A DNA stretch of 64,000 nucleotides, from positions 87,043,418-87,107,417 of the forward strand of contig NC_055987.1 of NCBI RefSeq assembly GCF_018446385.1. Direction: 5' to 3'. Shown in pieces: positions 7,025 through 59,880 of the stretch. Under the pieces are notes generated by a model. That model ran no database searches, had not been told where the DNA came from, and saw nothing but the letters and a program-made list of their open reading frames with translations. Source of the stretch: Zingiber officinale (taxonomy: Eukaryota; Streptophyta; Magnoliopsida; Zingiberales; Zingiberaceae). The position numbers were made by a program, and so were the translations under genes. Every line of letters begins with the position of its first letter. The first letter of the stretch is position 1.

Positions 7025-7026
7025 GT

Positions 7027-7038
7027 TGGTATCAGAGC
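7027..7038 (+). promoter_or_regulatory. Primer-binding site, initiator-Met tRNA type
   Basis: TGGTATCAGAGC lies two bases after the 5' LTR end, complementary to the 3' end of plant initiator-Met tRNA. It would prime minus-strand DNA synthesis. Confidence 0.9.
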
Positions 7039-9900: not shown

Positions 9901-9919
9901 CTGAACACGAGGTAGAGAC

Positions 9920-10252
9920 GGATGGAGTTGGTGAAGGATTATGATAGCAATATTAATTATCCTCCAAGTAAGGCTAATGTGGTGGAGGATGCGTTGAGTC
10001 GCAAGTCCGTGACACTGTCGCAGAGGATCACCCAACAACAGTGATATCGGAATTTTAATTGATGAGTTTGGAAGTCGGAAGATGTTGCCATGGATTTCAT
10101 GGTGGAACTACCAACCTTATTCGGGACATCAAAATGGTGAAGGTTTTATGGGAATCCGTTGAAGGAGTAGGCTACGTGGGAGATTGAATGGGACATGGCC
10201 AACCGCTATTCTGAATTATTTGATAAGTCAAAATTTCGAGGACGAAATTTTT
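9920..10252 (+). pseudogene. Scraps of chromovirus pol (RNase H tail, integrase piece, C-terminal tail)
   Basis: Near 9967-10010 the frame reads KANVVEDALSRKS, the hallmark end of Ty3/Gypsy RNase H. About 10078-10125 reads DVAMDFMVELP, like the integrase segment around the first catalytic residues. About 10165-10250 reads ATWEIEWDMANRY then KFRGRNF and a stop, the usual Tekay/Del polyprotein end just before the polypurine tract. The pieces are in different frames with large gaps between them, so this is a multiply deleted pol and not translatable. It identifies the parent as a chromovirus-type Gypsy element. Confidence 0.8.
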
Positions 10253-10267
10253 AGAAGGGGGGAGAAT
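10251..10267 (+). promoter_or_regulatory. Polypurine tract of Tekay-like element
   Basis: AGAAGGGGGGAGAA directly before the 3' LTR start TGTAAGG, the expected position for plus-strand priming. Confidence 0.88.
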
Positions 10268-12913
10268 TGTAAGGACCCATGAGCGAAATTAAGGAATTTA
10301 TTTATGAAAATGTCTAAGGTCACACAAGTGCTAATTAAAGAATTAACTTATAAAATATTCTATGAAATTTTAGAAATTTTTCAGAATTTCAAATAAACTT
10401 GTATGACATCATTTAAGGGGATAGAACCCTTAAGATTAAGGGAAACAAACGAAACCCTAGTTAAGTTAGGAATTGGTTACACTAATTACACTAAGTTACG
10501 GCTCTTAACCTAAGATTAAGAATTTATCTATGTATATAACTTAGCCTCACCGATTCCTCACTCATTGCCCGACCGAAATCACCGTCCCTTTCTCCTCCTC
10601 GCCTCTTAGTCCCGACGAAACCCTCGGCGGTGCTTTGAGATCCGACCAGGACACACCTTAGTGGGCAATTCTCCTCTAAGGACGACGCGATCGGAAGTGG
10701 AATCTGGCAACCTTCTTCCCGTCGGCGCTAACATGGAACGAGGGCTTCGGAGATAACACGCGGAAGGGAAAGGCAAGTTCATACCCTCTATGAATGAGTG
10801 AGATCTGTGAGGTAAGGAGGTAGGAACTTGGAAGCGAGAATCGTTTTCTTAGGTAAGGATTTGTGAAATGATTTACGAAAGGTTTCAATTCTGCAGAGTC
10901 TTGTTTCGATCGTGATTTCGAAGGGGTTTTCTTGGCTTGAATCATATGGTTTCAGGGTTGTGTCACTGCGTTCTAAGTTTTTGGATGGAGTCTGAGTTTC
11001 CGGTGGGTTATTTCTTTGTGGATTTTGTGGATCTAGCTTTGCCTGTGAATGAGATTGTACTCGATTTTACTCTAAGATTTTACCGATGCGAATCGAAGGT
11101 TCATTGAAATGTTTTTGTTGAAAACATGGATTGAGTTCGTCCGTCACAATCTTGCTCGATTAAATGCCTGTATGGGTTGTTGAGGGAAGAACTGGTGGCA
11201 TTTTGATTCGGGAAAGATTGAGTTTGAAGCATGGTGTGATTTCTCTGTGGTTGCTAAGGGGTCCGAGTATGAATTGGGTTTCCTCAAAGTTTTGCTAAGA
11301 TTTGTGATCGAAATGGATTTCGTTTGGTTCTTCATGTTCTTCTTGTTAAATTGATTCTAGGATCCTGCTTCTAGTAACCTTGGTTAAATGGGATGATGAT
11401 GGACTTGTTTCTTTGCGCATCTGGAAACGTATTTATGATTTACTATGTTATGGCTCTGTACAAAAGCAGCTGTAGTTCTGTTCTCCTTTACAGTCTTGGT
11501 TTCTTCTGAGTGATTTCAGATTTCTTGATTAATGTTAGAGCCGTTTGGAATTTGGTAGCATGTTAGATAGTTGTTCTGTTGGGTGTGGTTCCATGTACCA
11601 ATGCTGGGTTTTTGTTTTGATTGATTAGTATTTGTTGTTTGAGTTGTCGAACTCTTGCAATTGAGTTATTTGATACTTGAATCTATTTGCTTAGGAGATG
11701 TAGAATTATGAAACAACTAGGAATATTGCCTACAATTTTATCATGCACAAATAGATTTTTATATGCTCTAGATATCCCATGTTATATATGAATGTAGTTA
11801 GTAAAAGAATTGGACAGTAGGTTGATGTTCTATTCCATATGTTAGTTGTAGATTTCTGAAGTATAGGTTGTATCTATTTGTTTTTTTTATTCTGTTATTA
11901 TACCATGAGTTAACTTGGGTAGTTTTGATTCATGGAGGTAAATTCTCATGTGGATTGGAACTTAGCATAGTGCTGTAGGGTTGTAATTATTATATCTTTT
12001 CACCACGATGCAAATTTTCATTAGATTCTCCTTGTTCAGATAACTGATTAGAAGATGATTTGTCACGGCTGGTTGTTCACTTATGAGGATGCATGATTTC
12101 ATTATTTTCTTCAATATGAAAATGGTTATAGAATGAATGGAATAGAAAGGGCATGTTCAACTAATACAGAATAATGAGGGCAGTTTATATTTTTTATTTT
12201 TTTTTATGTAGCAAATAGGGTGAGTATGAGCATATGTGGTAGCAGTACGGGATGGGTGACCCGGGATGAGCTCCGGGGAGGGCCCATCCAAACTTGACTG
12301 ATACTGGAATTTATGTTAGCTTCGGCTATATGATTGCATGTTCTCTAGGAGGTACCTCTAGGTTCATGGGACTGTTGACTGGCTCTAATTGTGGTTACCG
12401 GATATGTGACATATTCACCTTAGTAGCTACGTAGGATCACTGTTGCATGTTATATCTCTCTATTATATGTGACATATCGTACTTGAGTTGTGTTATGGTT
12501 TCTTTAAAAGGCTTCTAGTTGCTATTTTTACTACCTTATGGATATCCTCATGTTCACATTGGTCTGTACTTGCTGGGTCGTAGACTCACCACATTTATAT
12601 CACAGGTGAGGATGACTTCTAGGATATGCCGGAAGGCCCACGGGCGGAGTAGACGAGGAGGCGGGATGGACGCATGGTACTGTCCGTTATCCGGGAGTGC
12701 GGAGCATACTGGATTCACTGCAAGAGTCATTTTCATTTCTTTGTCATTCGGGTGGGGAATGTTTAAGGAGTTTTTATTCATATCGATAAACATATGTTGA
12801 TACGGTCATGTCCATGGGTTATGATAATTTCTTTGTTGGTACTGCATTACGATCATTCAAATAGTAGTTGACCAGAGAGATTGGTAAAAAAAAAAAAAAC
12901 TAGGGATGTTTCA
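10268..12913 (+). repeat. 3' LTR of Tekay-like element
   Basis: This LTR is 2646 bp and near-identical to 4373-7024. Differences include scattered single bases and a shorter poly-A run (about 12885-12899). It ends TTTCA at 12913, followed by TSD GATCC. Confidence 0.93.
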
Positions 12914-14842
12914 GATCCACTCGCAACGCTAGGGTTTTTCTTTCAAGCTCTTTATTTTTCAATGATTGTCGCTCATGCTACAGTTCCTTTTTCATAGCCT
13001 CTATTTGTTGAGCCTGTAAAGCTATCTTCTCTTGTAATTGAGTAAGCTCAGTGTGGGATGGAGGAAGATTAGCTTTCAGTGCCTCTATTTAAGCTTTTAA
13101 CTTGCCATTTTCCCTTTCCAAAGCAATGAGTAGTTGGTCTAGATGAAGACTTGAGGCAAGAAATTGAAACAATAGTGCAGTTAGCAGGAAATAATGATAC
13201 AATAACAATATATAATGAAAAACACTTACGACAATAGCTTGACCACTATGACTGTCAACACGGTTGGAAATGCTAGTGCCCCTTAGCAGTTCTTGGCTAT
13301 GCTACCAAGATTCAGCCAACGGGCCTTGTAGCTGCAAAAAATGTAACTGGGAGGGTCCAAAGCTTGCCCCAATTGAGAAGGCAGACCCACAGCCTGTCTA
13401 AATAAAGGTGGGAGGACAGATGGTAAGGAAGGCCGGGTAGAAGAAGAAGGAAGAGAGAGAGGAGAAGTGGTAGAAATGGGAACAACAGAGGAAGAACTAG
13501 AGGGGATGGAAGGTGGAAAAGCAATAAAAGTTTATTTAGTTGTTGAAGCATGGATAGCAGATGGTTCTGGACTTAGAGAAGATCTCTTGCAAGGTGTTAA
13601 TCTAGCTCGGGGTCCATAAGCCAAAGGAGGTAAGGCCAGGGAAAGAGGTTGAGAGGAAGCTGAAGTGGTAGTAGCCATCTGAGGAGCAGAAATAGCTGAA
13701 ACAATAGCAGAAGAGGAGGGAATAAGCAGACCTGGTCTTATCATTCTAAGAGAAAGATTGGAAATAATGTGGGTAGGGAGCATTGGTGCCTTACCTCTCT
13801 CAAAAGAAATAGGTGAAGGAGCAATAGGGGTCTGCACAAAAGTACCAAAAGTATCACGAAAGGGAACTTCCTCAGTAAGCCTGCGTTTCTTGAGTATGGT
13901 AATAAAAGATTGTTTCTCTTCCTCTTCCATAGAAGAAATAGCTTCCGCTGTTTGTTCTTCCTCAGATAATAAACCCAAAGTAGAGGTGGTAGGGTTAGCT
14001 CGACGAGCTTGTAGTAATTGTTCTCCAAATTTATTCAAAAAAGACTTGGTCATAGTTGTATTCTTGAACATGAAAGCGGGTAGGAGAGCATCAACTGAGA
14101 CACAAGAATGGGGCGTCATTACAGAAAATAATTAGCAAATAACTGATAAACATAGCCTAGAATGTTTAGACATACCAAAAGAGACATCCAAGGGAGTGTC
14201 GATGCTACTTATTCCAAAGGGAAACATTAAACCCTCCACAATCAAGGATGGTAAGCTAAATTTAGCCCCCTTTAGCTTGGATAAGGCAAAAGAGACAGAG
14301 GGATCAGTGAGGAAGTTATCAGTGTTAGGAGCCGGGGGGAGATTGTGTATCCAGGCGATAGGAAAAGAAGCAGAAGAAGGGAGACGCATAAAGAAAAATT
14401 TGTGACGCCATTCCTCTTGAGGAGGAATCCTGCTAAACAAAAGGGCCTTAGTGCGAGACTGAAATTTAAAGACACCAATGTCTACTGGACAGGGAATGAA
14501 GAAGTAGTGAAAAAGACGAGGGGATAAGGGGAAATCTAGTAGTTTAGACACCCCAACAAAACCCACAAGGATAGAAAAAGACTGAGGAATAAACTGATTA
14601 AGAGGAATATCAAAGTAAATACTAACATCAGTGAAAAAGGGATGAAGGGGGAATCAGAAGCCTTGTAAGGCTTGAGCCCAGAAGATCAATATACTTCCTA
14701 AAGGAGAAAGATGCAGACTATCCCGAGGGATAGGGCGAACTATATAGAAAGGAAAACCATAGTTCACTTGTAACTCCACCTCCTCTGGCTCGGTAAGGCT
14801 AGAAGCGCATGAAAGAAACTACGCTGGGGAAGGAGTGACCAT
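12914..14842 (-). pseudogene. Tat antisense ORF copy A, N-terminal and middle part (Transposase_28-like)
   Basis: Minus-strand reading starts at an ATG at 14842 and is broken by at least two in-frame stops before 14566. It then runs through open segments 14566-14132 and 14119-13532. The first 250 residues resemble the plant family Pfam lists as putative gypsy-type transposon (Transposase_28, PF04195), with FPLHPFF-like and FKFQSRTKALLF motifs. The matching segment in copy B has FPIPPFL and FLFQSWTKMVLF. A Ser/Pro/Ala-rich linker follows, then coiled-coil-like sequence to 12914, where the Tekay-like element breaks it; it resumes at 4372. GTATGT and GTAAGT donor-like sites near 14172 and 13229 suggest introns. 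Degenerate and not functional as it stands. Confidence 0.65.
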
Positions 14843-16790: not shown

Positions 16791-16830
16791 GGTCATAAAA
16801 TAGTCATGGATAAATAAAAAATAAATAATA

Positions 16831-16861
16831 CACTACAACAAAAACCCTTATAAACATCGGT
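16831..16861 (+). repeat. Left terminal inverted repeat of CACTA
   Basis: Begins CACTACAACAAAAACCCT then TATAAACATCGGT. It matches the right end with two substitutions over 31 bp. Confidence 0.92.
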
Positions 16862-17254
16862 GGAACAACAATAGTTTTAAGCAAAAATCGATGTCTTTGA
16901 GTATTTTACATCGGTTTTTTCAAAAACCGGTGTCTATAAGCGTAGATTTTCGATCATAGACATCGGTTTTTTAAGCTGATGTCTATGAGCGCCTTTTTTT
17001 CGTTAATAGACACCGATTTTAACAGCGGTTTTTAAAACCCGATGTCTATGATAAAATAAAATAATTTAATTTCCCACCAATGCTTATCCGAAATTTGTAA
17101 CACTTCACTCTTATCTCCAAACCTAAACCTAATCGCGCCCCGCGCCACCACCACTTTCCTCCTCGCCGCTAGTCGTCCGACCATCTCTCTCAACCTCATC
17201 TCCCTCTTCCCCTTCCTAAATTGACGCCCATGCTTCTCCGTCCAACCACACAAC
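16862..17254. other. CACTA left subterminal region and captured 5' sequence
   Basis: Positions 16862-17050 hold repeated ATCGGTTTTT, ACATCGG and GATGTCTATGA words, the subterminal binding-site-like repeats of CACTA elements. Positions 17060-17254 are C-rich and look like the 5' leader of a captured gene. They continue at 26196 once the Copia is removed. Confidence 0.65.
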
Positions 17255-19210
17255 TGTTAGTTAGAGCCCTAGAGCCAATCATTTGATGATTGTATGGACT
17301 CATTGTATCATATTCTTGTATATTAATAAAGACATTTGTTTGGTTATTATACTTATTTGTATTAGTGCCAAATAGACAAAGTATAAAAGCGTCCTTGAGT
17401 AGAAGGTTCATACCTATATCAATCGATTAGTTGAATCGATAGTGAGATGATATAGGGAACACTACTCTAAATCATTCCTAGTCGAGTATTAACATTCAGG
17501 GACAATGTTAATACAATAAGACTAGCATGTAGGTCAGCTCGATGACTTGATCTCACAAGTCATGGATATAGAGATATCAAGCTGACACATGAGCATGCAT
17601 TAGAGAATGTATACTGAATGACCTACCATGAGAAAGTATCATGGATCGTTATATGAGTGTCATATACTTTCTCATGTAGCTATTAGTATGACTATTAGTC
17701 CTTAGACCTGAAGTCACCATGGATCCCTACATAAGGAGTTATGTACTTTGGTTTCGTCAAACGTCACCCGTAACTGGGTGGACTATAAAGGCGATTACTG
17801 GGTATGTAACGAATTATGCAGAGGGATGTGAGTGATGTAGATGAGATCTATCCCTCCTATATGACGGGAGTGACATCGATATTCTTGATAGAGTAAGACC
17901 ACGAATTGTATGGCCATACCCAAATGAGTCAATATGAGATATTGAGCTCATTTGATTGAGTGAGTCTACTTGGAGTTCAAGATTTAGATTGGTCAGAGGA
18001 TGACACGGTCTATGCCTCACATTGATCAATCTAGATGTCTAGGATAGAAGGACACTTGTCATATATTGTAAGAAGTCACAATTAATAGTCACAAGGTGAT
18101 GTTGGATCTCAACATTCTTATAACTTGGGTAGCAATGATGTATTGCTAGATGCCGCTCATTGCTTATGTTTCTAAAGGAGTTTAGAAACATTGCCAACGT
18201 TACAAGAGCCTATTGGGTCACACACAAAGAACAAGTGGATGGAGATTAGGTTCATATGATGAACCAATTGGATTAGGTTCATATGATGCACCAAAGATTG
18301 GATTCGAATTAGACTTATTGAGTTAGACTCAATTAGATTCAATTGTTGAATGAGTCTAATTTAAATTTGATTCATTGAGTCAATTTATATTAATGAATTG
18401 AGATTCATTAAATTGAAATTGACTTGAATCAAAGGTTGGATTTAACTCAACAAGGAAGAAATTGGTCAATTTTGACTTGACCAAATGGAATTTGAAACAT
18501 CAAGTTTGACTTGATGTATTGCCACATCATAAGGATGACTCATCCTTGCCACATCACCTCCACCTCATGAGGTATGCCACCTCATGGGGGTTACACTCTT
18601 CCCTTGGTTTTAATGTGGCCGGCCACATTAATGAAGGGGGTTACATTGTGTGGCCGGCCACACTAATGGTAGGGGGGTTTTGATTTTGTGGAGTTATGTG
18701 TGCATTCATTCTATCATCTTCTTCCTTGCTCCTCCCCTCTCTTGGCTAGAGGTTGCGGTGACTTCCATGGCGAGGAGAAGGTGGTTGAGTGAGTTAATCC
18801 AAGAAGTCCAAGAAGAAAGGTAATATTTTTAGAGGAGTGTATTGTATTCTCTTCTTTGCTTTCCTTTCTTCTTCCATTCCCATCCGAGAGCCCTAGAGAG
18901 AGTGCTAGCACACTTGGGGTCTTTCTTCTCCATCCTTGAGTGCTAGAGAGTACTCCTTGTTCGTGTGGATATCACTAGAGAAGTATCTATCTTGATACTT
19001 TGGAGATCCGACACGTACCTTGGACAAGCGGGATTTTGCGAGGGCACGCATCGAAGGTAAAATGTTTTCTTTGTAGATATACTGTAGATCAAAGTATTAA
19101 AACTCGTACTCGTGATTTCCGGAAATTTTCCTTGCACGGATCTACGGCTTTGGGTGATTCGGGGTTTCCGCGACGCGAAAAGCGATTTATGCGGCCCGAA
19201 AAACCCAACA
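17255..19210 (+). repeat. 5' LTR of Copia 1
   Basis: This LTR is 1956 bp and starts TGTTAGTTAGAGCC. It ends CCCAACA at 19210, one base before the primer site. It contains two GTGGCCGGCCAC palindromes near 18613 and 18650. ORFs here recur in the 3' LTR and are not genes. Confidence 0.95.
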
Positions 19211-19211
19211 G

Positions 19212-19223
19212 TGGTATCAGAGC
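19212..19223 (+). promoter_or_regulatory. Primer-binding site, initiator-Met tRNA type
   Basis: TGGTATCAGAGC, one base after the LTR, complementary to the 3' end of initiator-Met tRNA. Confidence 0.92.
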
Positions 19224-19394
19224 CACGTGCAAGGCTTGTACGAGTTTATTTTTTGGTTTTATGAAAACTAAAGTTTCTGTAATTTTCTGTAAAATTATGA
19301 TTTTTATAGTTTTTATGGGTAATTTTTCCGTAGAAGCGAAGCACAAGTGTCTCGGCACTTGTAGGCTTCGGCTACCGGAAGATTTTTCGTTTTG

Positions 19395-19745
19395 CCCCAA
19401 ATCCGTTTGGGACAGCGGGCTTGGGTGCCATTAGATCGCAAAGGAGCAACTCACGATGGTTATATCGTGGGTAGGGGTACTGCCCCTAACCCCGCAAGGG
19501 GATTTGCTCCGCGATTGCACCCGAAATCGCTAAAAATGAACCTGTCGGGAAGATTTTTCCGAAACGGCAATGTCTCGAACCAAATCATTTTGGGACAGCG
19601 AGTTTGGGTGCTGTTGGATTGCAAAGGAACCCTCGTGATGGTTAGATCGCGGGTAGGGGCGCTGCCCCTGGCCCCGGCAGGGGATCCGTTCCGCGATTGC
19701 GCCCGAAACCGCTAAACGGGACCGTCGGAAAATTTTACTCGTAAA
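19395..19745 (+). repeat. 183-bp tandem duplication in the Copia 1 leader
   Basis: The motif TTTGGGACAGCG begins the unit near 19406 and again 183 bases later near 19589. Each unit carries a GC-rich hairpin-like stretch (GTAGGGG, then CTGCCCCT, then CCCCGCAAGGGG or a variant) and ends in CGCGATTGC. The Copia 2 leader has this unit once (about 60070-60220). The rest of the leader (19224-20889) has no gene. It repeats GGGCGTATTAGCCAAAGCTA at about 20612 and 20728. Confidence 0.85.
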
Positions 19746-20889
19746 AAATTGTAAAAATTATTTTTAAAATTATAGAAAATTATGAAAATATATAATTTTG
19801 AATTATATATTAATTTTGTGATAGTCATGGCCCAAAAACCCAATATGATTGGATTGTGTTGTAATTCATTATACGGCCTGCGTGCCGTTATGTGTTTGCG
19901 CGTGTTGTATGTTTTATTTTTCCGCGACCTGCGCGTCGTGCCTTTCTCTTATATTCTTGTTGTAAATTAGATTTAGACTCGAATGTAACTCGAGTTTCAA
20001 ATTGTAATGTACAAATTGGAGCGGTGGAGGGTCCACACGAGCAGGAGTTCCGAGGTGGGCACGAGCAACACAAGGTGGTTAAAGGGAGGAGCTTGGAGAA
20101 GCTGTTGACCCTATGTTGACCATTCGATCTTCTCATTGGCTTGAGAAGATCGTAGTAGGGCCATGACTAAATCACAAATATATTAATTAGTTAATTGCTT
20201 ATGTATATGATGCATGTTTAATAAGTAATTAATTAATTAGTGCCTTACGATTAGATTAGATCTAAGTTGTGCACATGATGCACCGTTGCGATTAGATTAG
20301 ATCTAAGTCGTGCACAAGATGCATCCTTTTCGATTAGATTATATCTTGATCGAACCAACTCTAAATGCCTAACCGTGCCGTGATACCTATCACTACCTCG
20401 ATCACATGTATTGTTGAATCTGCCAAAGCAGAGCAATACATATTATCTTGGTAGGGTACGGAGGGACAATCTTTGTCCCGCCTATCAACGCATGGGTGAA
20501 TACAAACTCAATTAGATTGAGTATTCCTAGTTACTCGGTTGGATCGAGTCAACCATAGGCATTCTTCCAATAGTTGGAATGATAGGTCAAAATCACATCT
20601 ATATTAACTCTCGGGCGTATTAGCCAAAGCTAACTCGAGTTTTAATATAAATACGGATATTGATTTTATAAACAAGAGTTGCATAGAGATGTAATTGGTA
20701 ATCGTTACCTACCGATCATACTAAGCCTTGGGCGTATTAGCCAAAGCTAACTCAAGGGTTAGTATGATGTGGATCTTGTCCCACAAGAATTATAGAATTC
20801 AGTGGGAGCATCATTTAATTAAAGGCCTAATTAAATGATTTTAAAAGAATATGATATTTATTTCTGCAAATTTTCTGTTGTAGATAACC

Positions 20890-23800
20890 ATGACGTCGAA
20901 TACGAACTCTTTCTCCCTGCGTCCTGTCCTTAAGAAGGACAAGCTCAACGGAGCAAATTTCCTGGACTGTACAGGAACCCGAGAATAGTTCTCACCCAGA
21001 ACGTAAACTGACGCTGGAGCAGCCCATTCCGGAGGCTCCTCCTGCCACCGCCACGCAAGCGACCGGGATGCTTACAAGAAGCATCAAGATGACGCATTAG
21101 ATGTGTCCTGTCTTATGCGCTTGCGATATGGTTGAACATCTTTGTCACCTATATCAAGGACAAGCAAGGCACTGGAAGAGGAACTCCAAAGAATACCTGG
21201 AAGATTTTACGAAGAAGAGAAATAAGATTTCTACTTCAGGTATACATGTTATAGAAGTCAACCTCTCTATTTCTTCATCGTGGGTATTAGATACCGGATG
21301 TGCTTCGCACTAATGTACAAGCGCTGAGAAATAGCAGGGCATTGACGAAGGGTGAGATAGACCTACGAGTAGGCAATGGAGCACGAGTTGCTGCTATTGC
21401 TGTAGGAACTTATCATCTATCTCTTCCCTCTGGGCTTGTACTAGAATTAGATGATTGTTGTTATGTGCCTGCCTTGACTAAGAACATAATTTCAGTTTCT
21501 TGTTTGGACAAGAAAGGATTCTCGTTTATAATAAAGAACAAATGTTGTTCTGTCTATTTAAACGATATGTTCTATTGTAGTGCACCTCTAATAAACGGAC
21601 TCTATATTCTAGACCTTGAGAGCCCTATCTATAACATAAATACCAAGAGGTTCAAGTCAAATGACATGAACCAAACCTACCTCTGGCACTGTCGCTTAGG
21701 TCATATAAATGACAAGCGCTTATCCTAGCTCCATAAGGATGGTATGCTAGACTCATTTGATTTTGAATCATATGAGGTATGCGAGTCATGCCTACGAGGC
21801 AAGATGACCAAGACTCCCTTTAGTGGGCACAGCGAGAGAGCGACTGATTTGTTAGGACTCATACATAGTGATGTATGTGGCCCTTTCAATATCGCTGCTA
21901 GAGGCGGTTATAGGTACTTCATCACATTTACTGATGACTTCAGTAGATATGGTTATGTGTACTTAATGACACATAAGTCCGAATCCTTTGAAAAGTTTAA
22001 AGAATTCAAGAATGAAGTACAGAACCAGCTTGGCAAGAGTATTAAGATAATTCGATCCGATCGAGGTGGAGAATACCTTAGCCATGAGTTCCGTGACTAT
22101 CTAGCTGAGTGTGAGATTCTATCCCAACTCACTCCTCCTGGAACACCACAGTGGAATGGTGTATCCGAACGGAGGAATCGTACCTTATTAGATATGGTAC
22201 GATTTATGATGAATCACACAGATCTTCCGACATATCTATGGGGATATGCTCTAGACACGGCAGCTTTCATACTCAACCGAGTTCCATCAAAGGCCGTGAT
22301 AAAGACACCATATAGGATATGGACTAGGAGAGACGTGTCTTTCATGAGGATTTGGGGTTGTGAGGCTTACGTTATACGTCAAGTCTCGGACAAATTAGGA
22401 CCAAACCGATAAGTACTTTTCATTGGATATCCCAAGGAAATTAAGGATATTACTTCTACATTCCCAACAAGACAAGGTAGCAAAGACTGGGGTCTTTCTT
22501 GAAAGGGACTTTGTTTCTAGAAAGACTAGTGGGAACGTTAGATCTTGAAGAAGTTCAAGATGCGAATACTAGCATGAAGCCTCGATGGAAGTTGAACTGG
22601 AGCCACAAAGTGTTGTGGATGATGTTCCACAAGGAGTTGAGGAACAACAACCGGTTCAAGTAGACATACCTCTTCGCAGGTCTGAGAGATACTCATTTCT
22701 CTTGTCTGACCATGATGACGTTATGCTCATAGAGGATGAGCCTACCACCTATCGGAAGCTGTGATGAGACCAGATTCCAGAAATGGCTAGAGGCCATGAG
22801 ATCCGAAATGGAATCCATGTACACCAACCAAATATGGACTTTGGTTGATCCACTGAAGGGTAAAACCCATTGGGTGCAAGTGGGTCTTTAAGAGAAAGAC
22901 CGATGGATGGACTTATCTATAAGGGTCGCTAGGTAGCTTTCAAGCAGATTCATGGTATTGACTATGATGAAACCTTTCTCCAAGAGCGATGTTTAAGTCC
23001 ATTCGGATCATGCTTGCTATTGCACCTACCATGACTATGAGATATGGTAGATGGATGTCAAAACCGCGTTTCTGAAAACCTGCTCGAGGATGTGTACATG
23101 ACATAACCCGAGGGTTTTGTAGATCCACAACATACTAGTATGCAAGGTGCATAGGTCCATTTATGGACTAAAGCAAGCTTCGAGATCTTGGACTTCTCGA
23201 TGATGCAATCAAAGCGTTTGGTTTCATCAAGAACGAAGATGAGCCTTGTGTCTACAAGAAGGTTGTAGGAGATATAGTTGTCTTCCTCATATTGTATGTG
23301 GATGACATACTACTCATTGGGAAGGACATCCTATGCTTCCTGTCAAGACCCGGCTAGGGAGTTGCTTCTCAATGAAGGACTTAGGTGAGGCATCCTACAT
23401 TCTAGGGATACAGATCTATAGGGATAGATCTAAGAGATTGCTTGGCCTAAGTCGAGTACATACATTGACAAGGTACTCCTTCGGTTTGCCATGCAGAACT
23501 CCAAGAAGGGATTTGCCGATGTCACATGGCGTGAGTCTTTCGAAGACTCAAGGTCCCTCTTCTAGTGAGGAGAGAGACCGTATGGATCAGATCCCTTATG
23601 CCTCAACCATAGGATCGTCATGCTATGTACTCGACCGATGTCTCGTATGCTTTGAGCATGACGAGCAGATACCAGTCGGATCCAGTGAAAGTCATTGATA
23701 GCGGTCAAGAATATTCTTAAGTACTTAAGAAAGACTAAAGAATATTTCTTGATATATGGAGGCAATGATGAGCAAGTTGTAAAGGGTTACGGTGATGCTA

Positions 23801-24195
23801 GCGACCAGGATGACTATAGATCGCAATTGGGGTTCGTGTTTTGCTTAAATGGTGGTGTTGTGAGAAAGCAAGACACAGTAGCTGATTCTACAATAGAGGC
23901 CGAGTATATTGATGTATGAGAGGCAGAAGGAGTTTGGATCCGCAAGTTCATCATCGAACTTGGGGTGGTTCCTAGCATCGATGACTTGAGCTCTATTGTG
24001 ACAACAATGGAGCTATAGCACGCGAAGGAACCTCGCTCACACCAACGGACCAACTACGACGTTTCCATCTCATTCGAGAGATTATCGATAGAGGAGATGT
24101 GAAGATTTGCAGTACCTCAGAGGCTAACATCGCAGATCCCTTGACCAAGGCTTTGGCACGAGAAAGCATGATGGTCACACTAGGTCATTAGGCCT
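20890..24195 (+). pseudogene. Copia 1 gag-pol, broken
   Basis: The polyprotein start is ATG at 20890. The Gag N-terminus is followed by a large in-frame gap: at about 21168 the sequence jumps to HWKRN, the tail of the CCHC zinc knuckle, so its first half and the second half of Gag are missing. Protease motif DTGCASH is at 21290. The pre-integrase motif LWHCRLGH is at 21681. Integrase is at about 21780-22410, with HSDVCGPF and SERRN visible. Reverse transcriptase is at about 22780-23450 with an intact YVDD at 23295. RNase H, with STIEAEYID, runs to about 24190. A TAG at 21726 and frameshifts in gag, after 22410 and through RT disable it. Not functional. Confidence 0.92.
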
Positions 24196-24222
24196 TAGAG
24201 CCTATACTGATTGGCACTAGTG

Positions 24223-24234
24223 CTAGTGGGAGAT
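24223..24234 (+). promoter_or_regulatory. Polypurine tract of Copia 1
   Basis: AGTGGGAGAT immediately before the 3' LTR start, the usual Copia plus-strand primer. Confidence 0.88.
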
Positions 24235-26190
24235 TGTTAGTTAGAGCCCTAGAGCCAATCATTTGATGATTGTATGGACTCATTGTATCATATTCTTGTA
24301 TATTAATAAAGGCATTTGTTTGGTTATTATACTTATTTGTATTAGTGCCAAATAGACTAAGTATAAAAGCGTCCTTGAGTAGAAGGTTCATACCTATATC
24401 AATCGATTAGTTGAATCGATAGTGAGATGATATAGGGAACACTACTCTAAATCATTCCTAGTCGAGTATTAACATTCAGGGACAATGTTAATACAATAAG
24501 ACTAGCATGTAGGTCAGCTCGATGACTTGATCTCACAAGTCATGGATATAGAGATATCAAGCTGACACATGGGTATGCATTAGAGAATGTATACTGAATG
24601 ACCCGCCATGAGAAAGTATCATGGATCGTTATGTGAGTGTCATATACTTTCTCATGTGGCTATTAGTATGACTATTAGTCCTTAGACCTGAAGTCACCAT
24701 GGATCCCTACATAAGGAGTTATGTACTTTGGTTTCGTCAAACGTCACCCGTAACTGGGTGGACTATAAAGGCGATTACTGGGTATGTAACAAATTATGCA
24801 GAGGGATGTGAGTGATGTAGATGGGATCTATCCCTCCTATATGACGGGAGTGACATCGATATTCTTGATAGAGTAAGACCACGAAGTGTATGACCATATC
24901 CAAATGAGTCAATATGAGATATTGAGCTCATTTGATTGAGTGAGTCTACTTGGAGTTCAAGATTTAGATTGGTCAGAGGATGACACGGTCTATGCCTCAC
25001 ATTGATCAATCTAGATGTCTTGGATAGAAGGACACTTGTCATATATTGTGAGAAGTCACAATTAATAGTCACAAGGTGATGTTGGATCTCAACATTCTTG
25101 TAACTTGGGTAGCAATGATGTATTGCTAGATGCCGCTCATTGCTTATGTTTCTAAAGGAGTTTAGAAACATTGCCAACGTTACAAGATCCTATTGGGTCA
25201 CACACAAAGAACAAGTGGATGGAGATTAGGTTCATATGATGAACCAATTAGATTAGGTTCATATGATGCACCAAAGATTGGATTCGAATTAGACTTATTG
25301 AGTTAGACTCAATTAGATTCAATTGTTGAATGAGTCTAATTTAAATTTGATTCATTGAGTCAATTTATATTAATGAATTGAGATTCATTAAATTGAAATT
25401 GACTTGAATCAAAGGTTGGATTTAACTCAACAAGGAAGAAATTGGTCAATTTTGACTTGACCAAATGGAATTTGAAACATCAAGTTTGACTTGATGTATT
25501 GCCACATCATAAGGATGACTCATCCTTGCCACATCACCTCCACCTCATGAGGTATGCCACCTCATGGGGGTTACACTCTTCCCTTGGTTTTAATGTGGCC
25601 GGCCACATTAATGAAGGGGGTTACATTGTGTGGCCGGCCACACTAATGGTAGGGTGGTTTTGATTTTATGGAGTTATGTGTGCATTCATTCTATCATCTT
25701 CTTCCTTGCTTCTCCCCTCTCTTGGCTAGAGGTTGCCGTGACTTCCATGGTGAGGAGAAGGTGGTTGAGTGAGTTAATCCAAGAAGTCCAAGAAGAAAGG
25801 TAATATTTTTAGAGGAGTGTATTGTATTCTCTTCTTTGCTTTCCTTTCTTCTTCCATTCCCATCCGAGAGCCCTAGAGAGAGTGCTAGCACACTTGGGGT
25901 CTTTCTTCTCCATCCTTGAGTGCTAGAGAGTACTCCTTGTTCGTGTGGATATCACTAGAGAAGTATCTATCTTGATACTTTGGAGATCCGACACGTACCT
26001 TGGACAAGCGGGATTTTGCGAGGGCACGCATCGAAGGTAAAATGTTTTCTTTGTAGATCTACTGTAGATCAAAGTATTAAAACTCGTACTCGTGTTTTTC
26101 GAAAATTTTCCTTGCACGGATCTACGACTTTGGGTGATTCGGGGTTTCCGCGACGCGAAAAGCGATTTTCGCGGCCCGAAAAATCCAACA
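24235..26190 (+). repeat. 3' LTR of Copia 1
   Basis: This LTR is 1956 bp, the same length as the 5' LTR. It ends ATCCAACA at 26190, followed by TSD ACAAC. Confidence 0.95.
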
Positions 26191-26314
26191 ACAACATCTC
26201 CTCCAACGCCCTTCTTCGCATTCCCAAGACCACCGCTCGATTCCTTCTTCGCATTCCTTTATCCATTCGTCGCTACTGACATCCTTCCTCATCTTCGACA
26301 GTTTCATCGTCGCT

Positions 26315-26625
26315 ACTGATTGCCCCTCCGCCAGTGCAGCTCTGAAGACCAGGAAGAGGGCGAGGGACGACGGTGATTTCAAGAGAGTCGCGGAGATCGT
26401 TATGGTTTTGTCGGCCTTGGGACAGATGCGAGGCGGCAAGGAGCTGGCGGCGGGTGAGAAGGCGTTAGTGACCGAGGCCAAGGAGAGGCTTGTGGTGATG
26501 TGCGAGGCCTGTCAAACCGAAGGATCTCGTCTCCACGGAGGCAGTGAGGGTCGTGGCGGAGGATCTTGGGCTGAACAGGTCTAAGGATCCTGCTTTGGGA
26601 TTCCAGCTGCCCAGGATGTCCATCG
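26315..26625 (+). pseudogene. Captured N-terminal exon of a host gene, probably a plant PHD-finger protein
   Basis: An open frame reads through KTRKRARDDGDFKRVAEIVM and LSALGQMRGGKE with high GC3, unlike the surrounding transposons. A one-base shift around 26505-26520 moves the sense frame to KPKDLVSTEAVRVVAEDLGL, then [10 protein letters not shown]. The combined sequence resembles, from memory, the N-terminus of a plant PHD-finger family whose later exons may be those at 27755-29238; this link is inference. It ends just before a CDKB2-like start codon at 26632, so the two genes are fused head to tail without spacing. A stop at 26582 closes the original frame. It is not translatable as one protein. 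No promoter could be assigned. Confidence 0.6.
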
Positions 26626-26631
26626 TATGCG

Positions 26632-27582
26632 ATGGACGCATTCGAGAAGCTAGAGAAGGTCGGGGAAGGAACGTACGGCAAGGTTTACAAGGCGCGAGAG
26701 AAGGCCACCGGCAAGATCGTCGCTCTCAAGAAGACCCGCCTCCTCGAGGATGACGAGGGCGTTCCTCCCACCACGCTCCACGAGGTCTCCCTCCTCCGCA
26801 TGCTTTCCATCGATCCCCATGTCGTCAGGTGCTATTCTCTACCTGATTGAATAATTTATGGAAATTTCATTTTCTCGACACTTCTTTTCATCGATTTGCT
26901 TGCTCTTGATTTTGATTCCAGGCTTTTGGATCTGAAGCAAGACCAGAACAAGGAGGGGCAAACCATTCTCTACCTAGTCTTTGAGTACATGGACATGGAT
27001 CTGAAAAAGTACATCAGAAGTTTCCGCCAGAGCCATGAAATGATGCCACCAATGACTGTTAAGGTAAAAATTAATTTAAGAGCTGATTTTTTTTTCTACC
27101 ACCCAATATGATGCATCAAAATTTGTTGAAATCCTCATTACCAAGAGGTTGTTGAAGAGCATCATGATTTCTCTCTGTTTCTTGAAAGGTTCTTTAAAAG
27201 TTGTCAATTGTGCATCAACAACATGAATTTTAGGGCAGAAAATTTCTCTGCTTCCACTAGGGATAGGACACTAAATATTTGATAAATTATGGTACTTTTA
27301 GATTCTCACAAGGTCTCTTGTTGTAGATTTTGATGTATCAACTTTGCAAAGGAATTTCATTCTGTCATGGTCATGGAGTGTTGCACAGGTTGGAAAAAAC
27401 TCATTCACCATCTTGTTTCAGTATGTTAAAGATAAGATCTTGTTGAATAATTTTCTCCTTAATTTTGCAGGGATCTTAAGCCTCACAATATTTTAATGGA
27501 CCGCAAGACTATGATGCTAAAAGTTGCGGATCATGGACTCAGTCGTGCTTTCACCATTCCCCTCAAGAAATACACGCACGAG
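26632..27582 (+). pseudogene. CDKB2-like: Captured CDKB2-like kinase fragment, exons 1-4
   Basis: Four exons with correct phase and GT/AG borders are visible: 26632-26828, 26922-27063, 27327-27388 and 27471-27582, giving 171 codons. B-type CDKs are plant-specific kinases active at G2/M. Exon 1 has the glycine loop [10 protein letters not shown], the ATP-lysine context IVALKK and a cyclin-binding helix PPTTLHE. The expected class B2 helix is PPTTLRE, so R is H here. Exon 2 has LYLVFEYMDMDLKKYI. Exons 3-4 rebuild HGHGVLHRDLKPHN. The metal-binding DLG is DHG here. The fragment stops at KKYTHE; the exon with the activation segment and the C-lobe, nearly half of a roughly 300-residue kinase, is missing. 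Introns show that capture was at DNA level. It would not be an active kinase. CDKB1 is a less likely source because its helix is PPTALRE. Confidence 0.88.
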
Positions 27583-27754
27583 GTCACATATCTTTTAGCT
27601 TGTATTGGAAAGCACAGCATTTGAAAATAACTAGCTTTCCAGTTTTCACGACAGAATTTGTTTGAATGTAAGATATCTGATATGACATTTTCCTTAAGTG
27701 TTTAGTCACTGCAGAACTTATCTGATAACCTATGCTTGTGGTCTAATTCTACAG

Positions 27755-29238
27755 ATGGAAATGTCCAAGGAAACAAACGTGCATTTATCAGTTCATTCCT
27801 CTCAACAGCTTCCTGTAAGTGTTGGTGCAAAATCTGAATCTCGTGGTACCATTGCATCTGGTGCTTCTAGGATTTCATAGGACAAGAGTCCTATGCCAAC
27901 ATCCTCTGGAGGCTTTCATAATTCTTCAACTATATCTCATGTTCCTGTGCTAGCCTTTGCTGCCCCTAATTTGAAGTAGTCACTGATTAGTGATGCGCAA
28001 GCTGGTGTCAATACCATTAAACATTCATCTAGTTCCCGTGATAAGGCTTTGCCTTCAGCACATAATGGATTAAATGCTAGACCTAGTGGACCATCTTATC
28101 TGACACAATATCAAGGTAAAATCTTTAGACCATATCTGTCCGTATTATCTATCAATGCTGTGAAATTCTGACATCCTTTGCTTTGTTATGGCTTGAATAC
28201 TTGATTAATGCATTATCATTTTTCTTATTTCCTTTTTGCTTAATTTCTTAAATTTATCAAGTTCCTAAAAAGTATTAAAATATTTTGGCCTTCTTTACTG
28301 AAGTTTTATGTGAACTAGTATTAGTCATAGTTGCAGTTCAATAAAGAACAGATAATTATATGAGTCAGAGATAGCATTGTGGTACTAATATCAGTAATTG
28401 TGTTTATTTCCTAATTATTTTTTATTTTGGTACCAAGCAGTGTGGCCTGGTATACTGGTAAGACATGTCTGCTAAAGGCTCAATCCTTTTTTTTAGCATA
28501 AATATAAAGGCTAGTTTTTCCTTTGTGAATCCTTTTCTCTATTGTTTGGAATTTGGGGTTTCCCTACGTGTAATATTGGACATGTCCTAATATTTTCATT
28601 CATGCTTAACTTGTTTTCTATTGCATTTGAAAATCCACCTCAGAAAATCCGAACCATCTCTTCCATGCAATCACCATCTGTTGTTGTTGTGTCAAGGTTT
28701 AGCCAACCAAACAAATTGTTGGATCATATTTCAATTAGGTTAGAGGGTATTGCCGGTGCAAATGCTAGCCAATCTTCTCATCAGATGAAAAATCAGGAAA
28801 TAAAGTATTCTACAGTTCAAGCAGGACAAGGAGGCCTGCATATTACACATCAACCTACTCAAGGCTTGGCATTCTTCCACGCACCTTCTCTTTATACCAA
28901 TCACAATGAGATTGGTAAGAGTGTGCAGAGGATATTGCAATCGAAGGTTCTGGATCACCCAAACTGGATTCCTCCATCAAGTGACTATATGAATGCTTCT
29001 TTAAATTGCCAGATATGCAAAAATGTGATTTCAGATACAGAAAGTTTGCTTGTCTGTGATGCTTGTGAGAAAGGAAACCATTTGAAATGTCTTCAATCTT
29101 ATGGCAGCAAAGACATTCCTAAAGCAGAATGGCATTGCCCAAGCTGCTTGGCATCAAGTAATGGAAAGACCTTGCCACCCAAATATGGAAGGAACAGGAC
29201 CACCCGACGGGATGCCCTCAGTGAAGACCCAGATGTTG
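27755..29238 (+). pseudogene. Captured PHD-finger protein fragment
   Basis: Exon 27755-28115 (acceptor TACAG, donor GTAAAA) is Ser-rich and has in-frame stops at 27878 and near 27977. The exon from 28644 (acceptor CCTCAG) to 29238 (donor GTGAGA) is open and ends with a C4HC3 PHD finger: CQIC, then CDAC, then NHLKC, then HCPSC, at about 29008-29145. PHD fingers read histone-tail modifications in nuclear proteins. A possible further exon begins at 29456. It follows the CDKB2-like fragment with only a short intron-like gap and probably shares a source gene with 26315-26625. The stops make it a pseudogene, although the PHD exon itself remains intact. Confidence 0.8.
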
Positions 29239-29539
29239 GTGAGAGTAATCTATTCCTGTAAGAGCCCCGGGAAGGGTGAAGTGTGGTAAAAGCCTCACCA
29301 GTAGGGAGAAAAGCACAACTTTCACTACATTTCATCTCTTGAAAACTAGTTTTTCTATGAGTTTTCTACGTATCTGATCTCCCTTCTTTGTGTTCCACTA
29401 CCTTTTTTCCATATCAGAAGCATTCAAGTGTTTCCCCTTTATCTTTTCCATGCAGGTCGATCTGAGTTCCTCTGTTATTCTTGGAATTTCTTAGATCGAA
29501 TTGGAGCATTGCTCATGTTAGAACATTTTTTTTTATCAG

Positions 29540-30097
29540 ATGGCAATTCTTTGCTTTGCCAGTAACACTAGCGTGGCTGTTGCACTCTGTCTACTGCTCC
29601 TCATCCTTTGGGGCTTTTGCAATGATCATCCGATTTCAGCATTTCTTACTCTGTTCGTGCTTGTGCTTTCCCCTTCCGCTCTATTTGCTATCAAACAGCT
29701 TGGAAAAGCCCGGAGATCATCACAGAGTTTTGCAGACAAGAAGGCAGCTACTGGCTCAGAAGTTGCATCACTGGAATCTGAAGGATCGGAGTATTAGCTG
29801 ACCAGTAAGGCTCCATGCATGGGCACTGAGTTATCTGAAAAGGATGAAGAGAATTCAATATCCGACGATGAAAATCTCATTGAGATTTCACTCCCTGATG
29901 GCCATTTTCTTGCACATGATGAGACAAAGGCATTGTTGAACTTGGAGCCACTTCCTTTATTGAGTGGATTCCTGCCAAGCCCTCTACAGGATGCAGTGGT
30001 GAGCCCTTTATTTATGTGTTTTTACAGTTTACAAATCTCAAGTACTCTAGAGTTGAAATTGATGAAGTGCGGTTCGAGTGGGCTGAATGCATGCTAG
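29540..30097 (+). pseudogene. Captured intronless small membrane-protein gene with one stop
   Basis: The frame runs 186 codons from ATG 29540 to a stop at 30095-30097, broken only by TAG at 29795. The N-terminal 55 residues form two hydrophobic segments (about residues 9-26 and 31-50). A basic stretch KQLGKARRSS follows, then an acidic tail with SDDENLIEISLPDGHF. I do not recognise a named family. It looks like a small plant membrane protein with a cytosolic acidic tail. An acceptor-like TTTATCAG directly before the ATG may mean it is instead the 3' exon of the PHD gene read in another frame. The last 30 codons run into non-coding-looking sequence. Confidence 0.6.
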
Positions 30098-30682
30098 ATT
30101 ACATTTGAAGTGCGGTTCTACCTTGATATGTTGTTAAAAGAATGCTCAACCTTGATTCTGATATCTATTAGCTTTTGATGTAAAAAGAATGTTTGTGTAT
30201 TTTAAGAATACTGTTGTAAGAAGATTATTTATGTAATTTGTGAATATTTGTGTATTTTATGGATATTGTTGAATGAAGAATATTTGTGTAATTTGTGAAT
30301 ATTTGTGTATTTTTTTTTGTTATTGTATTCATTGTTTCGGAAATCAATGTGCTGTTAAAAAATACCGATATTACATCAGTTTTCCACCGCTGCAAAACCG
30401 GTGTTATTAACTAATATTACATCGGTCGTATACCGCTGCCAAAATTGGTGTTATTAACATATAATATTACATCTGTTTTACACCGTTGATGAAATGACGT
30501 CGTTAAGTCATACTACACCGGTTAATAACCGATTCGAACACCGGTGTCGTTAAGTGATACTACACCGGTTTTAACCCGATGTCTAAAATGGCAGACCTTT
30601 TACATCGACTTCATAGATATCGGTCAAAAACGTAATAGACACCGGTGGAAAACCGATGTCTATGAGGGTTTTTGTTGTAGTG
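30098..30682. other. CACTA right subterminal region and terminal inverted repeat
   Basis: Positions 30098-30350 are T-rich without a gene; TTTGTGTATTTT-like words repeat. Positions 30360-30665 hold at least eight copies of ACACCGGT, ACATCGGT, ACCGATGTC or their complements, mirroring the left end. The terminal inverted repeat is 30652-30682. Confidence 0.8.
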
Positions 30683-30699
30683 ATAGCAAACATACTTTG

Positions 30700-33510: not shown

Positions 33511-34630
33511 TTATGTGCGTAGATCTTATGATTGTTTATGTATGTTTTAGCACACATTCACTTGCTTTATGCACACATATTCTTTGCATAATCGTCTCCT
33601 TTAGTGCATGCTCATCATAAATACTCTTTTGTTTGGAAATCTACTCTTTGCTTGTTTTCTTGTTGACAGGACGTTATTTGGAGCGGAAATGGAGAAAAAG
33701 GGCACACAGGAGCTTGGGTCGTGCAAGGCCACACGGCCGTGTGGCTATGAGCATGTTCCGGTCGTACCAAATGGCACAGTCGTGCTTGCAATCCAGAGGT
33801 GAAGAGGGCCTTGGTCATGCCGAATGGCACGACCGTGCCAATCAACCCGTGGCCAAGCAGCATTCTAGAGAGGAGGAAGGTCACGACATTGTGAATCCAC
33901 ACGACCGTGTGACCCTGGGCAGAGAAGCAGAAGGCCACGGCCGTGCAACCTTGCACGACCGTGTGGCCACTCCAGAGAGGAATCAAAGCATGGACGTGCA
34001 ATCTTGCACGGTCGTGCCTCACAACCAGCGGCCAAGGAAGACACGGCCGTGCGGACTCACATGGCCGTGCCACTCAACTAGAAGGGAGGAAAGACGTGGT
34101 CATGCCAACCTTGCACGGTCGTGCCACGACCCGTGCGGCGCCCGCTCCCTAGTGTATAAAAGGGTCAAGAACCCTATTCTTGGGTTCATCTTTGGTTCGG
34201 AACTTCGTCCCTCCCCTCGGGGAAAGTCGTCGAGCTTCATCCACCGTCGTCACTTCACGATCCGTCCATCTCAGGAGCAAGGAAGCATCCCTAAGACATC
34301 GGAATCATCAATCATCTCTTCTTCCTCTTCTTCTATGGTTGTAAGTATGCTTTTCTTTATATTCTGGGGTTATTCTTCCCTCACAATGGAGTAGACATCC
34401 TCTTCTAGGATTAGGGAGTACATGTAATGCGATGGAGATGTAGAACTATGTAGATTTATCTTATTTTTATTCGATGACTTGTTCATGCCTTGTTCATGCT
34501 TGAGTGACATATTTATATTTCATGCTTTGTTGATTGATGTGGAGGATGGTTAATCCTGCAAAGGGGGCGCCCTAGAGCATATTGAGCAAGGTACCCTAGT
34601 GACAGGGGTAATCCTTTTCAGACGTCTAAG
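33511..34630 (+). repeat. Left LTR of Athila-like element, piece 1
   Basis: Aligns with 47408-48530. Positions 33725-34140 are packed with palindromes such as ACACGGCCGTGT (33731) and GCACGACCGTGC. A TATA box (TATAAAAGG) follows at 34155. The 253-residue ORF at 33633-34394 is a product of this low-complexity region. The piece ends with CTAAG, the TSD of the solo Copia LTR. Confidence 0.92.
34155..34163 (+). promoter_or_regulatory. LTR TATA box
   Basis: TATAAAAGG directly after the palindrome cluster; the right LTR has it at 48052-48060. It is the probable U3/R promoter of the element. Confidence 0.7.
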
Positions 34631-36326
34631 TGTTAGTTAGAGCCCTAGAGCCAATCATATGATGATTATTGTATGGACTCATTGTATCATATTCCTATAT
34701 ATATAAAGGCTTTTGTTTTGGTTATTATATTTACTTGTATTAGTACCAAATAACTAAGTATAATAGCGTCCTTGAGTAGAAGGTTCTTACCTATATCAAT
34801 CGATTGGTTGAACCAATAGTGAGATGATATAGGGAACGCTACTCTTAATCAATCCTAGTCAAGTATTAACATTCAGGGACAATGTTATTGCGATGAGACT
34901 AGCATGTAGGTCAACTCGATGACTTGATCTCACAAGTCATGGATATAGAGATATCAAGTTGACACATGGGTATGCATTGGAGATTGTATACTGAATGACC
35001 CGCCATGAAAAAGTATCATAGATCGTTATATGAGTGTCATATACTTTCTCATGTGGCTATTAGTATGACTACTAGTCCTTGGACCTGAAGTTACCATGGT
35101 TCCCTATATAAGGAGTTGCATACTTTGGCTTCGTCAAACGTCACCCGTAACTGGGTGGACTATAAAGGCGATTACTGGGTATGTAACAAATTATGCGGAG
35201 GGATGTGAGTGATGTAGATGAGATCTATCCCTCTTATATGACGGGAGTGACATCATTATTCTTGATAGAGTGAGACCACTAAGTGCATGACCATGCCCAA
35301 ATGAGTCAATATGAGATATTGAGCTTATTTGCTTAGAGTGAGTCTACTTGGAGTTCAAGATTTATATTGATTAGAGGATGACACGGTCTATGCCTCACAT
35401 TGATCAATCTAGATGTCAAGGATAGAAGGACATTGTCATGTATTGTGAAGAGTCACAATTAGTAGTCACAAGGTGATGTTGGATCTCAACATTCTTGTAA
35501 CTTGGGTAGTAGTGATGTGTTGCTAGATACCGCTCATTACTTATGCTTCTAAATGAGTTTAGGAGCATTGCCAACGTTACAAGAACCTATAGGGTCACAC
35601 ACAAAGGACAATTAGATGGAGATTCGGTTCATATGATGAACCAAGAGGATTGGGTTCATGTGATGAACCGAATTGGATTAAGAGTAATCTAAATTAGATT
35701 AATTAAGACTTGATTGAGTTAGACTTGAGTTAGACTCAAGTGAGGCTTAATGATGATATTCATTAAATTTTGAATTCAATGATAAATGGAATTCAATTTG
35801 AATTTTAGATTCAAATTTCGAATGAGTTTCAAAATGGCCATTTAATGAAAAATGAATATTCATTAAATATTCATTAAGGCTCATTAATGAGGCTCATTAA
35901 TGATGTTAATGAGCATTAAGTATTTTCATTAGATGAAAATACTTAAGCCATTTTTTTTACTCTTATTTGATAATCGATCATTATTATTCCTCCTTGCTTC
36001 TTCTTCTCTCCCTCTCCTCCTCCTTGGTCGAAACCCTCAAAGAGTGCTAGCACACTCTAGGGTTTCTTCTCCACCTAACTGTTCGTTTGGATACACATAG
36101 AGGGGTGTTCACTTGACACCCTTGAGATCCGGCATCTTCTTGGACGAGCGGGATAAGAGAAGGGCTTCGCATCAAAGGTATAAACTCCTAAACATGTAGA
36201 TCTAAAGTAGATCTAGGATTAGAAAACACATACATGAAAATTTAATATTCACACGGATTGGGTGGCATGGGATTTCGGGGTTTTTGCAATGCAAAAAGCG
36301 GTTTTTGTGGCCCGAAAGACCCTACA
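34631..36326 (+). mobile_element. Solo Copia LTR, TSD CTAAG
   Basis: Starts TGTTAGTTAGAGCCC and ends CCTACA. It is 1696 bp, of the same family as the Copia 1 and Copia 2 LTRs but more diverged. The direct repeat CTAAG lies at 34626-34630 and 36327-36331. There is no internal region, so this is the product of LTR-LTR recombination. The intact right Athila LTR shows the empty site near 48530. Confidence 0.94.
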
Positions 36327-57568: not shown

Positions 57569-57763
57569 TATCTACATCTCCATCATATTACAAATACTTC
57601 CTAATCCTAGAAGAGGATATCTACTTCATTGTGAGGAAAGAACAACCCCAAAATATAAAGTAAAGCATACTTACAACCCTTGATGTGAGAAGAAGGGGAA
57701 GAAGAGATGCTTGCCGAGGTTTTCGATGTCTATGGGATCCCTCCTTGCTCTGGAGATGGATGG
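57569..57763 (-). mobile_element. Athila LTR fragment
   Basis: Reverse complement of about 48163-48345 in the right Athila LTR, for example AACAACCCCAAAATATAAAG and CCTAATCCTAGAAGAGGAT. It ends exactly where an LTR with TGTTGG begins, so it is the insertion target of that LTR. At the other side the word AGAAGAGGATATCTAC is duplicated (57560 and 57617). Confidence 0.75.
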
Positions 57764-59867: not shown

Positions 59868-59868
59868 G

Positions 59869-59880
59869 TGGTATCAGAGC
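59869..59880 (+). promoter_or_regulatory. Primer-binding site, initiator-Met tRNA type
   Basis: TGGTATCAGAGC, one base after the LTR. Confidence 0.92.

Follow-up and report, generated by a model that had tools for sequence, protein, structure and literature searches.

How DNA transposons acquire host genes is still debated, and one locus in a stretch of 64,000 nucleotides from ginger (Zingiber officinale; hereafter the window) poses the question in concrete form: what is the sequence between positions 16831 and 30682, from which genes was its content taken, and in what order and by what route did the pieces come together? The original prediction of a non-autonomous CACTA transposon with captured host gene fragments is supported by the termini, the target site duplication (TSD) and the cargo, which are laid out as follows.

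16831-30682: complete CACTA element (matching termini, TSD ATA, subterminal repeats)
16831-16861, plus strand: left terminal inverted repeat (TIR), starting CACTACAAC, 29 of 31 bases equal to the right end; TSD ATA at 16828-16830
16831-17060, plus strand: left terminal and subterminal region with ACATCGG/ACACCGG repeats (motifs at 16853, 16927, 16959 and 17039)
17255-26190, plus strand: nested LTR retrotransposon, presumably copia-type, not CACTA cargo (LTRs 17255-19210 and 24235-26190; TSD ACAAC)
26318-26624, plus strand: PHD-gene exon 1 fragment, DUF7797 (tblastn with ginger and Curcuma PHD proteins; Pfam)
26625-27600, plus strand: CDKB2 fragment with four exons, 26632-26828, 26922-27063, 27327-27388 and 27471-27582 (GT-AG introns; match to P0124)
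27600-29190, plus strand: PHD-gene fragment comprising part of intron 1, exon 27755-28119, an intron and an exon at about 28629-29190 (tblastn; Pfam PHD)
29190-30001, plus strand: membrane-protein gene fragment (92% amino acid identity to Curcuma longa P0241 over 143 columns)
30028-30105, plus strand: 3' element sequence common to ginger models with differing cargo (C-termini of six models, 91-96%)
30340-30682, minus strand: right subterminal repeats and right TIR (motifs at 30398, 30537, 30541, 30576, 30638 and 30653; TSD ATA at 30683-30685)

Ends of the element and its nested retrotransposon

That window positions 16831-30682 form a complete CACTA element is confirmed. The left terminus (16831-16861) agrees with 30652-30682, taken in reverse complement, at 29 of 31 bases, against 22 for the runner-up elsewhere in the window, and the flanks read AATAATA followed by CACTACAAC on the left and GTTGTAGTG followed by ATAGC on the right, with the 3-bp TSD, ATA, on both sides. 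CACTACAA is present once in the window, while CACTACAACAAAAACCCT stands at both termini, as membership of the CACTA (En/Spm) superfamily demands. The motif RACAYCGG, counted on either strand, has 16 sites in the window, ten of which fall in the outer 270 and 343 bp of the element (613 bp, or about 1% of the window); the 31-bp inverted termini, ATA duplication and repeats at both ends that had been predicted are borne out by these figures. A transposase, of which none had been visible from the letters, was likewise absent when every one of the 40 stop-free stretches of at least 50 amino acids outside the LTR element was compared with Pfam (E up to 0.01), so that the element is taken to be non-autonomous. 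Fragments of host coding genes (CDKB2, PHD and membrane protein) between TIRs, with no transposase found, place it among Pack-TYPE elements. The sequence at 30028-30105, into which six of the 23 related ginger models described below read (P0002, P0007, P0020, P0026, P0028 and P0031), lies inside the element and is not its terminus.

The earlier account had passed over an LTR retrotransposon of about 8.9 kb nested at 17255-26190 between ACAAC duplications, without which the CACTA element measures 4.9 kb. Two of its four open segments of at least 100 amino acids carry gag_pre-integrs, Pol_BBD and integrase core domains, a set which we take to denote the copia type. Its two LTRs are 98.4% identical (31 differences in 1956; K2P 0.016) and, with the substitution rate from rice of 1.3e-8 per site per year, insertion would date to approximately 0.6 million years ago if that rate holds. 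More pieces of the same retrotransposon family are present at 34631-35692 and at 58037-63998, the latter extending to the window end (81-92% identical in the larger pieces). Elsewhere in the window, direct repeats of 2,653 bp with 99.0% identity (4373-7025 and 10268-12914, together spanning 4373-12914) resemble the LTRs of another young retrotransposon, units of roughly 80 bp repeated in tandem, with many offset self-matches, occupy 1889-2733, and two 1.1-kb copies, 93.6% identical, lie at 33513-34630 and 47410-48527, each with a partial match, in inverted orientation, to 57571-57763.

Donor genes of the cargo

Judged from its sequence, the cargo is derived from three host genes, namely a PHD gene, CDKB2 and a membrane-protein gene, and Pfam assigned Pkinase, DUF7797 and PHD domains to it. 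A count of four donors was rejected: by tblastn, the GC-rich coding exon that had been listed as a separate piece belongs to the PHD gene (DUF7797 plus PHD) as its first exon, hence three donors. This exon 1 fragment has no start codon, carries a 1-bp frameshift near 26510 and, in the window copy, is interrupted by CDKB2 exons 1-4. Downstream, the first PHD exon (27755-28119) contains stops at 27878 and 27977, and the second, at about 28629-29190, bears the PHD finger, in which Pfam agrees with the PHD-finger gene fragment originally proposed. Protein P0030 is 95% identical over 176 amino acids and has, by eye, a normal PHD-gene C-terminus, the model lacking an N-terminus; it is nearer to the putative PHD donor than P0006 and P0004 are, and may itself be the donor gene and not an element. 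Dating the PHD capture from the divergence to P0006 and P0004 was rejected, since the tree puts both in another paralogue.

The four-exon CDKB2-like kinase fragment of the original prediction is corroborated by its GT-AG introns, by the Pfam Pkinase domain and by 95.9% amino acid identity over 171 residues to the ginger CDKB2-1-like protein P0124. Spliced, kinase exons 1-4 form an open frame that breaks off within the kinase domain, leaving the C-terminal lobe incomplete, and the fragment reads DHG where its parent P0124 has DLG. On its left, PHD exon 1 ends at 26624 and CDKB2 sequence follows within four bases (26624/26629). On its right, the boundary lies after 27582, by about 27600 as judged from P0011 (which is without a kinase match and contains intron 1), and at the latest at 27638 as judged from P0020 (which has an uninterrupted exon-1 end), giving a joint of 18 to 56 bases. 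The residues MSIA, near the left joint (26616-26632), occur both in ordinary PHD proteins (P0006 and P0004) and in the CDKB2 protein P0124. Because introns are kept in the kinase and PHD pieces, these are not retrocopies, and retrocopies were rejected as their source.

The third piece meets the PHD sequence at about 29190 and has a stop at 29795. Of the intronless membrane-protein ORF described previously, the membrane-protein identity stands, and the piece is perhaps not intronless, given that 29190-29258 weakly resembles an upstream part of the Musa homologue P0246 (13 of 21 columns, E 0.15). Among the best 120 of 158 matches, with proteins of similar length as candidates, there was no ginger parent at approximately 92% identity; identity falls to 58.5% for the ginger relative P0243 and 60% for P0244. 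Taken together, the PHD and membrane pieces are broken in frame and the kinase piece is truncated.

Related ginger models and the probable order of capture

Other ginger copies are known as predicted proteins, and such models may splice artificially or fuse neighbours. Among 120 listed of 144 matches, 23 were from ginger, of which 21 were kept after removal of the ordinary paralogues P0006 and P0013; P0121 and P0122, from the 120 listed matches of a further protein search, brought the set to 23 models on 10 contigs, which were distinguished by their lengths. The number of loci is smaller than that of models because two pairs (P0010 with P0122 and P0001 with P0036) each look like two annotations of one locus and because a published ginger assembly is described, in the available part of its paper, as haplotype-resolved (PMC8342452), while clustering of the protein database at 90% identity may hide copies. 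P0121 (212 residues, on a contig of 194,392,478 bases) is letter-for-letter equal to our conceptual splice of CDKB2 exons 1-4 (171 residues) with 41 residues of PHD exon up to the first stop; the window locus has therefore been annotated as a kinase-like gene.

Kinase joined to PHD-derived sequence was present in 9/23 models (P0003, P0005, P0007, P0010, P0012, P0015, P0021, P0121 and P0122), and an uninterrupted PHD exon-1 end (EKLMLT) with no kinase match in another six (P0001, P0002, P0018, P0020, P0024 and P0028). P0008, P0011, P0026, P0027, P0030, P0031, P0032 and P0036 likewise gave no kinase match, several models being partial. P0010 crosses the same PHD/CDKB2 joint as the window in another reading frame and, like P0005 and P0012, joins the kinase to a long PHD form (KYGR-VTRAP...); P0003, P0007, P0015 and P0021 share with the window a short PHD form followed by the membrane fragment. 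The N-terminus of P0021 is a ribosomal protein L10/P0 domain in Pfam, and P0007 starts similarly by eye, its ribosomal domain not being scored by Pfam; this start may be a captured piece or a gene-prediction fusion. Among the 120 listed of 144 matches, no kinase domain was annotated outside the ginger models of this family, and none was found in the ordinary PHD proteins of ginger, Curcuma, Canna and Musa among the matches listed. Kinase and PHD pieces contiguous at an ordinary host locus, which the original prediction had named as evidence against itself, were thus sought among the same 120 of 144 matches, with none found.

From 26300 onwards, the left PHD region of the window is also present in P0011 and P0032, neither of which has a kinase match. 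Since models without a kinase match have this region or the 3' element sequence, and six keep the uninterrupted exon-1 end, the comparison suggests that PHD was captured first and CDKB2 later. P0001 and P0020 contain the end of exon 1 and a following sequence, read as intron 1, that are absent from the window; the kinase fragment therefore appears to have taken the place of this stretch.

In a tree built with a stricter projection of rows onto the alignment, the window grouped with 21 ginger models (100/100), separately from the paralogues of ginger and Curcuma. The eight kinase-bearing rows all fell within a 10-row set (95/90) alongside P0008, which is without its 5' part, and P0028, which is without the kinase. 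A single kinase clade was not rejected (p-AU 0.27); an earlier tree that did reject it (p-AU 4.7e-73) was discarded on account of misalignment of P0012, P0015 and P0028 in the middle segment. With kinase-free P0028 inside the set, loss of the fragment, exchange among copies or poor resolution of the tree has to be reckoned with. A scan of 382 columns gave four (15, 77, 142 and 213) that separate most kinase-bearing rows from most others; they were chosen after the fact, and columns 15 and 213 each have a single exception. The tree does not order the long-PHD and membrane-fragment forms.

Proposed growth of the cargo in comparison with known elements

The element in the window very probably belongs to a non-autonomous Pack-CACTA family of Zingiber officinale, the cargo of which changed in stages. 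A CACTA transposase from elsewhere would recognise the terminal and subterminal repeats and move the element, action in trans being suggested by its ends together with the missing transposase. The founding cargo of the family would have been a PHD-gene fragment; in one lineage, about 1 kb of genomic CDKB2 DNA would later have been substituted for the last part of PHD exon 1 and the first part of intron 1 and, in a separate step, the 3' PHD exons replaced by the membrane-protein fragment. A ribosomal-protein-P0-like piece seemingly replaced the 5' part of one or two copies, unless gene prediction fused a neighbour there. Such swaps could arise by faulty repair of breaks in the element, with copying from an unrelated gene (template switching), and microhomology at the PHD/CDKB2 capture joint is possible. 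We consider break-repair copying the most likely route for the swaps, with confidence that is about evenly balanced; it is favoured because the swaps lie within the cargo, older cargo is lost and no transposon end adjoins in the window copy. The fuller account, a staged series in which each new host fragment replaced part of the older cargo through break-repair copying from unrelated loci, is put forward tentatively, at slightly under an even chance. The stages it would comprise (PHD; PHD with CDKB2; PHD, CDKB2 and membrane; ribosomal-P0, CDKB2, PHD and membrane) are proposed with similar reserve. The copia element would have broken up the window copy after its cargo changes.

A less likely route is that two nearby CACTA copies lost their inner ends and moved as one with the DNA between them, as proposed for Arabidopsis Pack-CACTA and supported by Pack-TYPE clusters in rice and maize in the available text of those reports (PMC8903248, PMC13317346). 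Fusion of neighbours could explain other steps of the series, the founding capture most of all, but the host fragments of the window copy adjoin each other at 26624/26629, between 27582 and 27600-27638 and at about 29190, none of these three joints contains CACTA terminal sequence, and PHD sequence has been lost, not flanked. It is improbable that a chimeric PHD-CDKB2 gene arose in the host and was then captured whole: the joint that P0010 has in common with the window would fit this, yet is also expected from a single capture, a kinase-PHD fusion outside ginger was absent among 120 listed of 144 matches, and models without a kinase match share the left PHD region (P0011 and P0032) or the 3' element sequence (P0002, P0020 and P0028).

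We find it equally hard to credit that the chimera is active, being transcribed to yield a truncated CDKB2 protein that would interfere with the parent kinase, or siRNAs that would silence the CDKB2 or PHD parents. Ginger models do join kinase and PHD exons at the window locus (P0121) and at a second locus (P0122), and fragments in soybean Tgm-Express1 are spliced as exons according to the text available (PMC1947982); against this, a predicted protein is no proof of a transcript, the kinase piece stops short of a complete C-terminal lobe and reads DHG against the DLG of P0124, and the reading frame stops after 41 residues of the PHD part, without reaching the PHD finger. With a frame ending there and partway through the kinase domain, and with DHG for DLG, an active kinase is not expected, and the window copy is most likely an inert, decaying passenger, the retained splice sites of which could still give chimeric RNA. 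That the two ends belong to different insertions flanking a resident pseudogene cluster is scarcely credible and was rejected: the other ginger copies are known from protein models without their ends, but the matching ATA duplication, the 29/31 TIR and the 3' sequence common to 6/23 models tie the ends together.

The staged Pack-CACTA family can be set beside elements already known. Pack-MULEs and gene-carrying Helitrons capture and shuffle host gene fragments, and the ginger element differs from both in its termini and 3-bp TSD, which are of the CACTA type. Both are named as gene-fragment carriers in the available text of PMC1947982, which describes soybean Tgm-Express1 as a 5.7-kb CACTA element with exon-intron pieces of five host genes, including CDC2, that are spliced into chimeric transcripts whose expression was shown. 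The ginger element is similarly a CACTA element with intron-containing host pieces, a cell-cycle kinase fragment included, but it has three donors and not five, a PHD gene is not named among the soybean five in that part of the paper, relatives at different stages are apparently present in the ginger genome, and the ginger element is known from sequence whereas expression was shown in soybean. Pack-CACTA and other Pack-TYPE elements of Arabidopsis, rice and maize have, in the available text of PMC8903248, TIRs and TSDs, no transposase and fragments of coding genes, and those of maize often combine fragments from more than one locus, Pack-CACTA having the most. The ginger element resembles them in its TIRs, TSD and host gene fragments and in that no transposase was found; it departs from the growth by neighbour joining described there in that host fragments abut, one replacing part of another.

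A gene-fragment-carrying CACTA element is thus of a kind already known in plants, of which this is a further example. The original prediction had thought the combination perhaps undescribed; soybean Tgm-Express1, likewise a CACTA element, is already published with a fragment of a cell-cycle kinase (PMC1947982). Among the papers listed, no report of this ginger element was found by title or start of abstract, and those on CACTA with cyclin-dependent kinase and on ginger with gene capture included nothing relevant by title; 'CACTA', 'DNA transposon' and 'gene capture' do not occur in the available main text of the ginger genome paper (PMC8342452). What gives the case its interest is the series of staged intermediates, together with the replacement of PHD sequence by CDKB2. 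With copies that lack the kinase, bear it or have changed further all in one genome, both the order of capture and the joints could be read directly and, if the staged series is true, CACTA elements would recruit genes by break-repair copying from unrelated loci, beyond neighbour fusion. The family further points to transposon cargo behind some of the database entries for ginger 'cyclin-dependent kinase' and 'PHD finger' proteins, and this bears on gene-family counts in this crop. Entries that are apparently of this nature, corresponding to 26625-27880 of the window, include those named 'cyclin-dependent kinase' (P0003, P0005 and P0010) and 'cell division control protein 2 homolog D-like' (P0121 and P0122).
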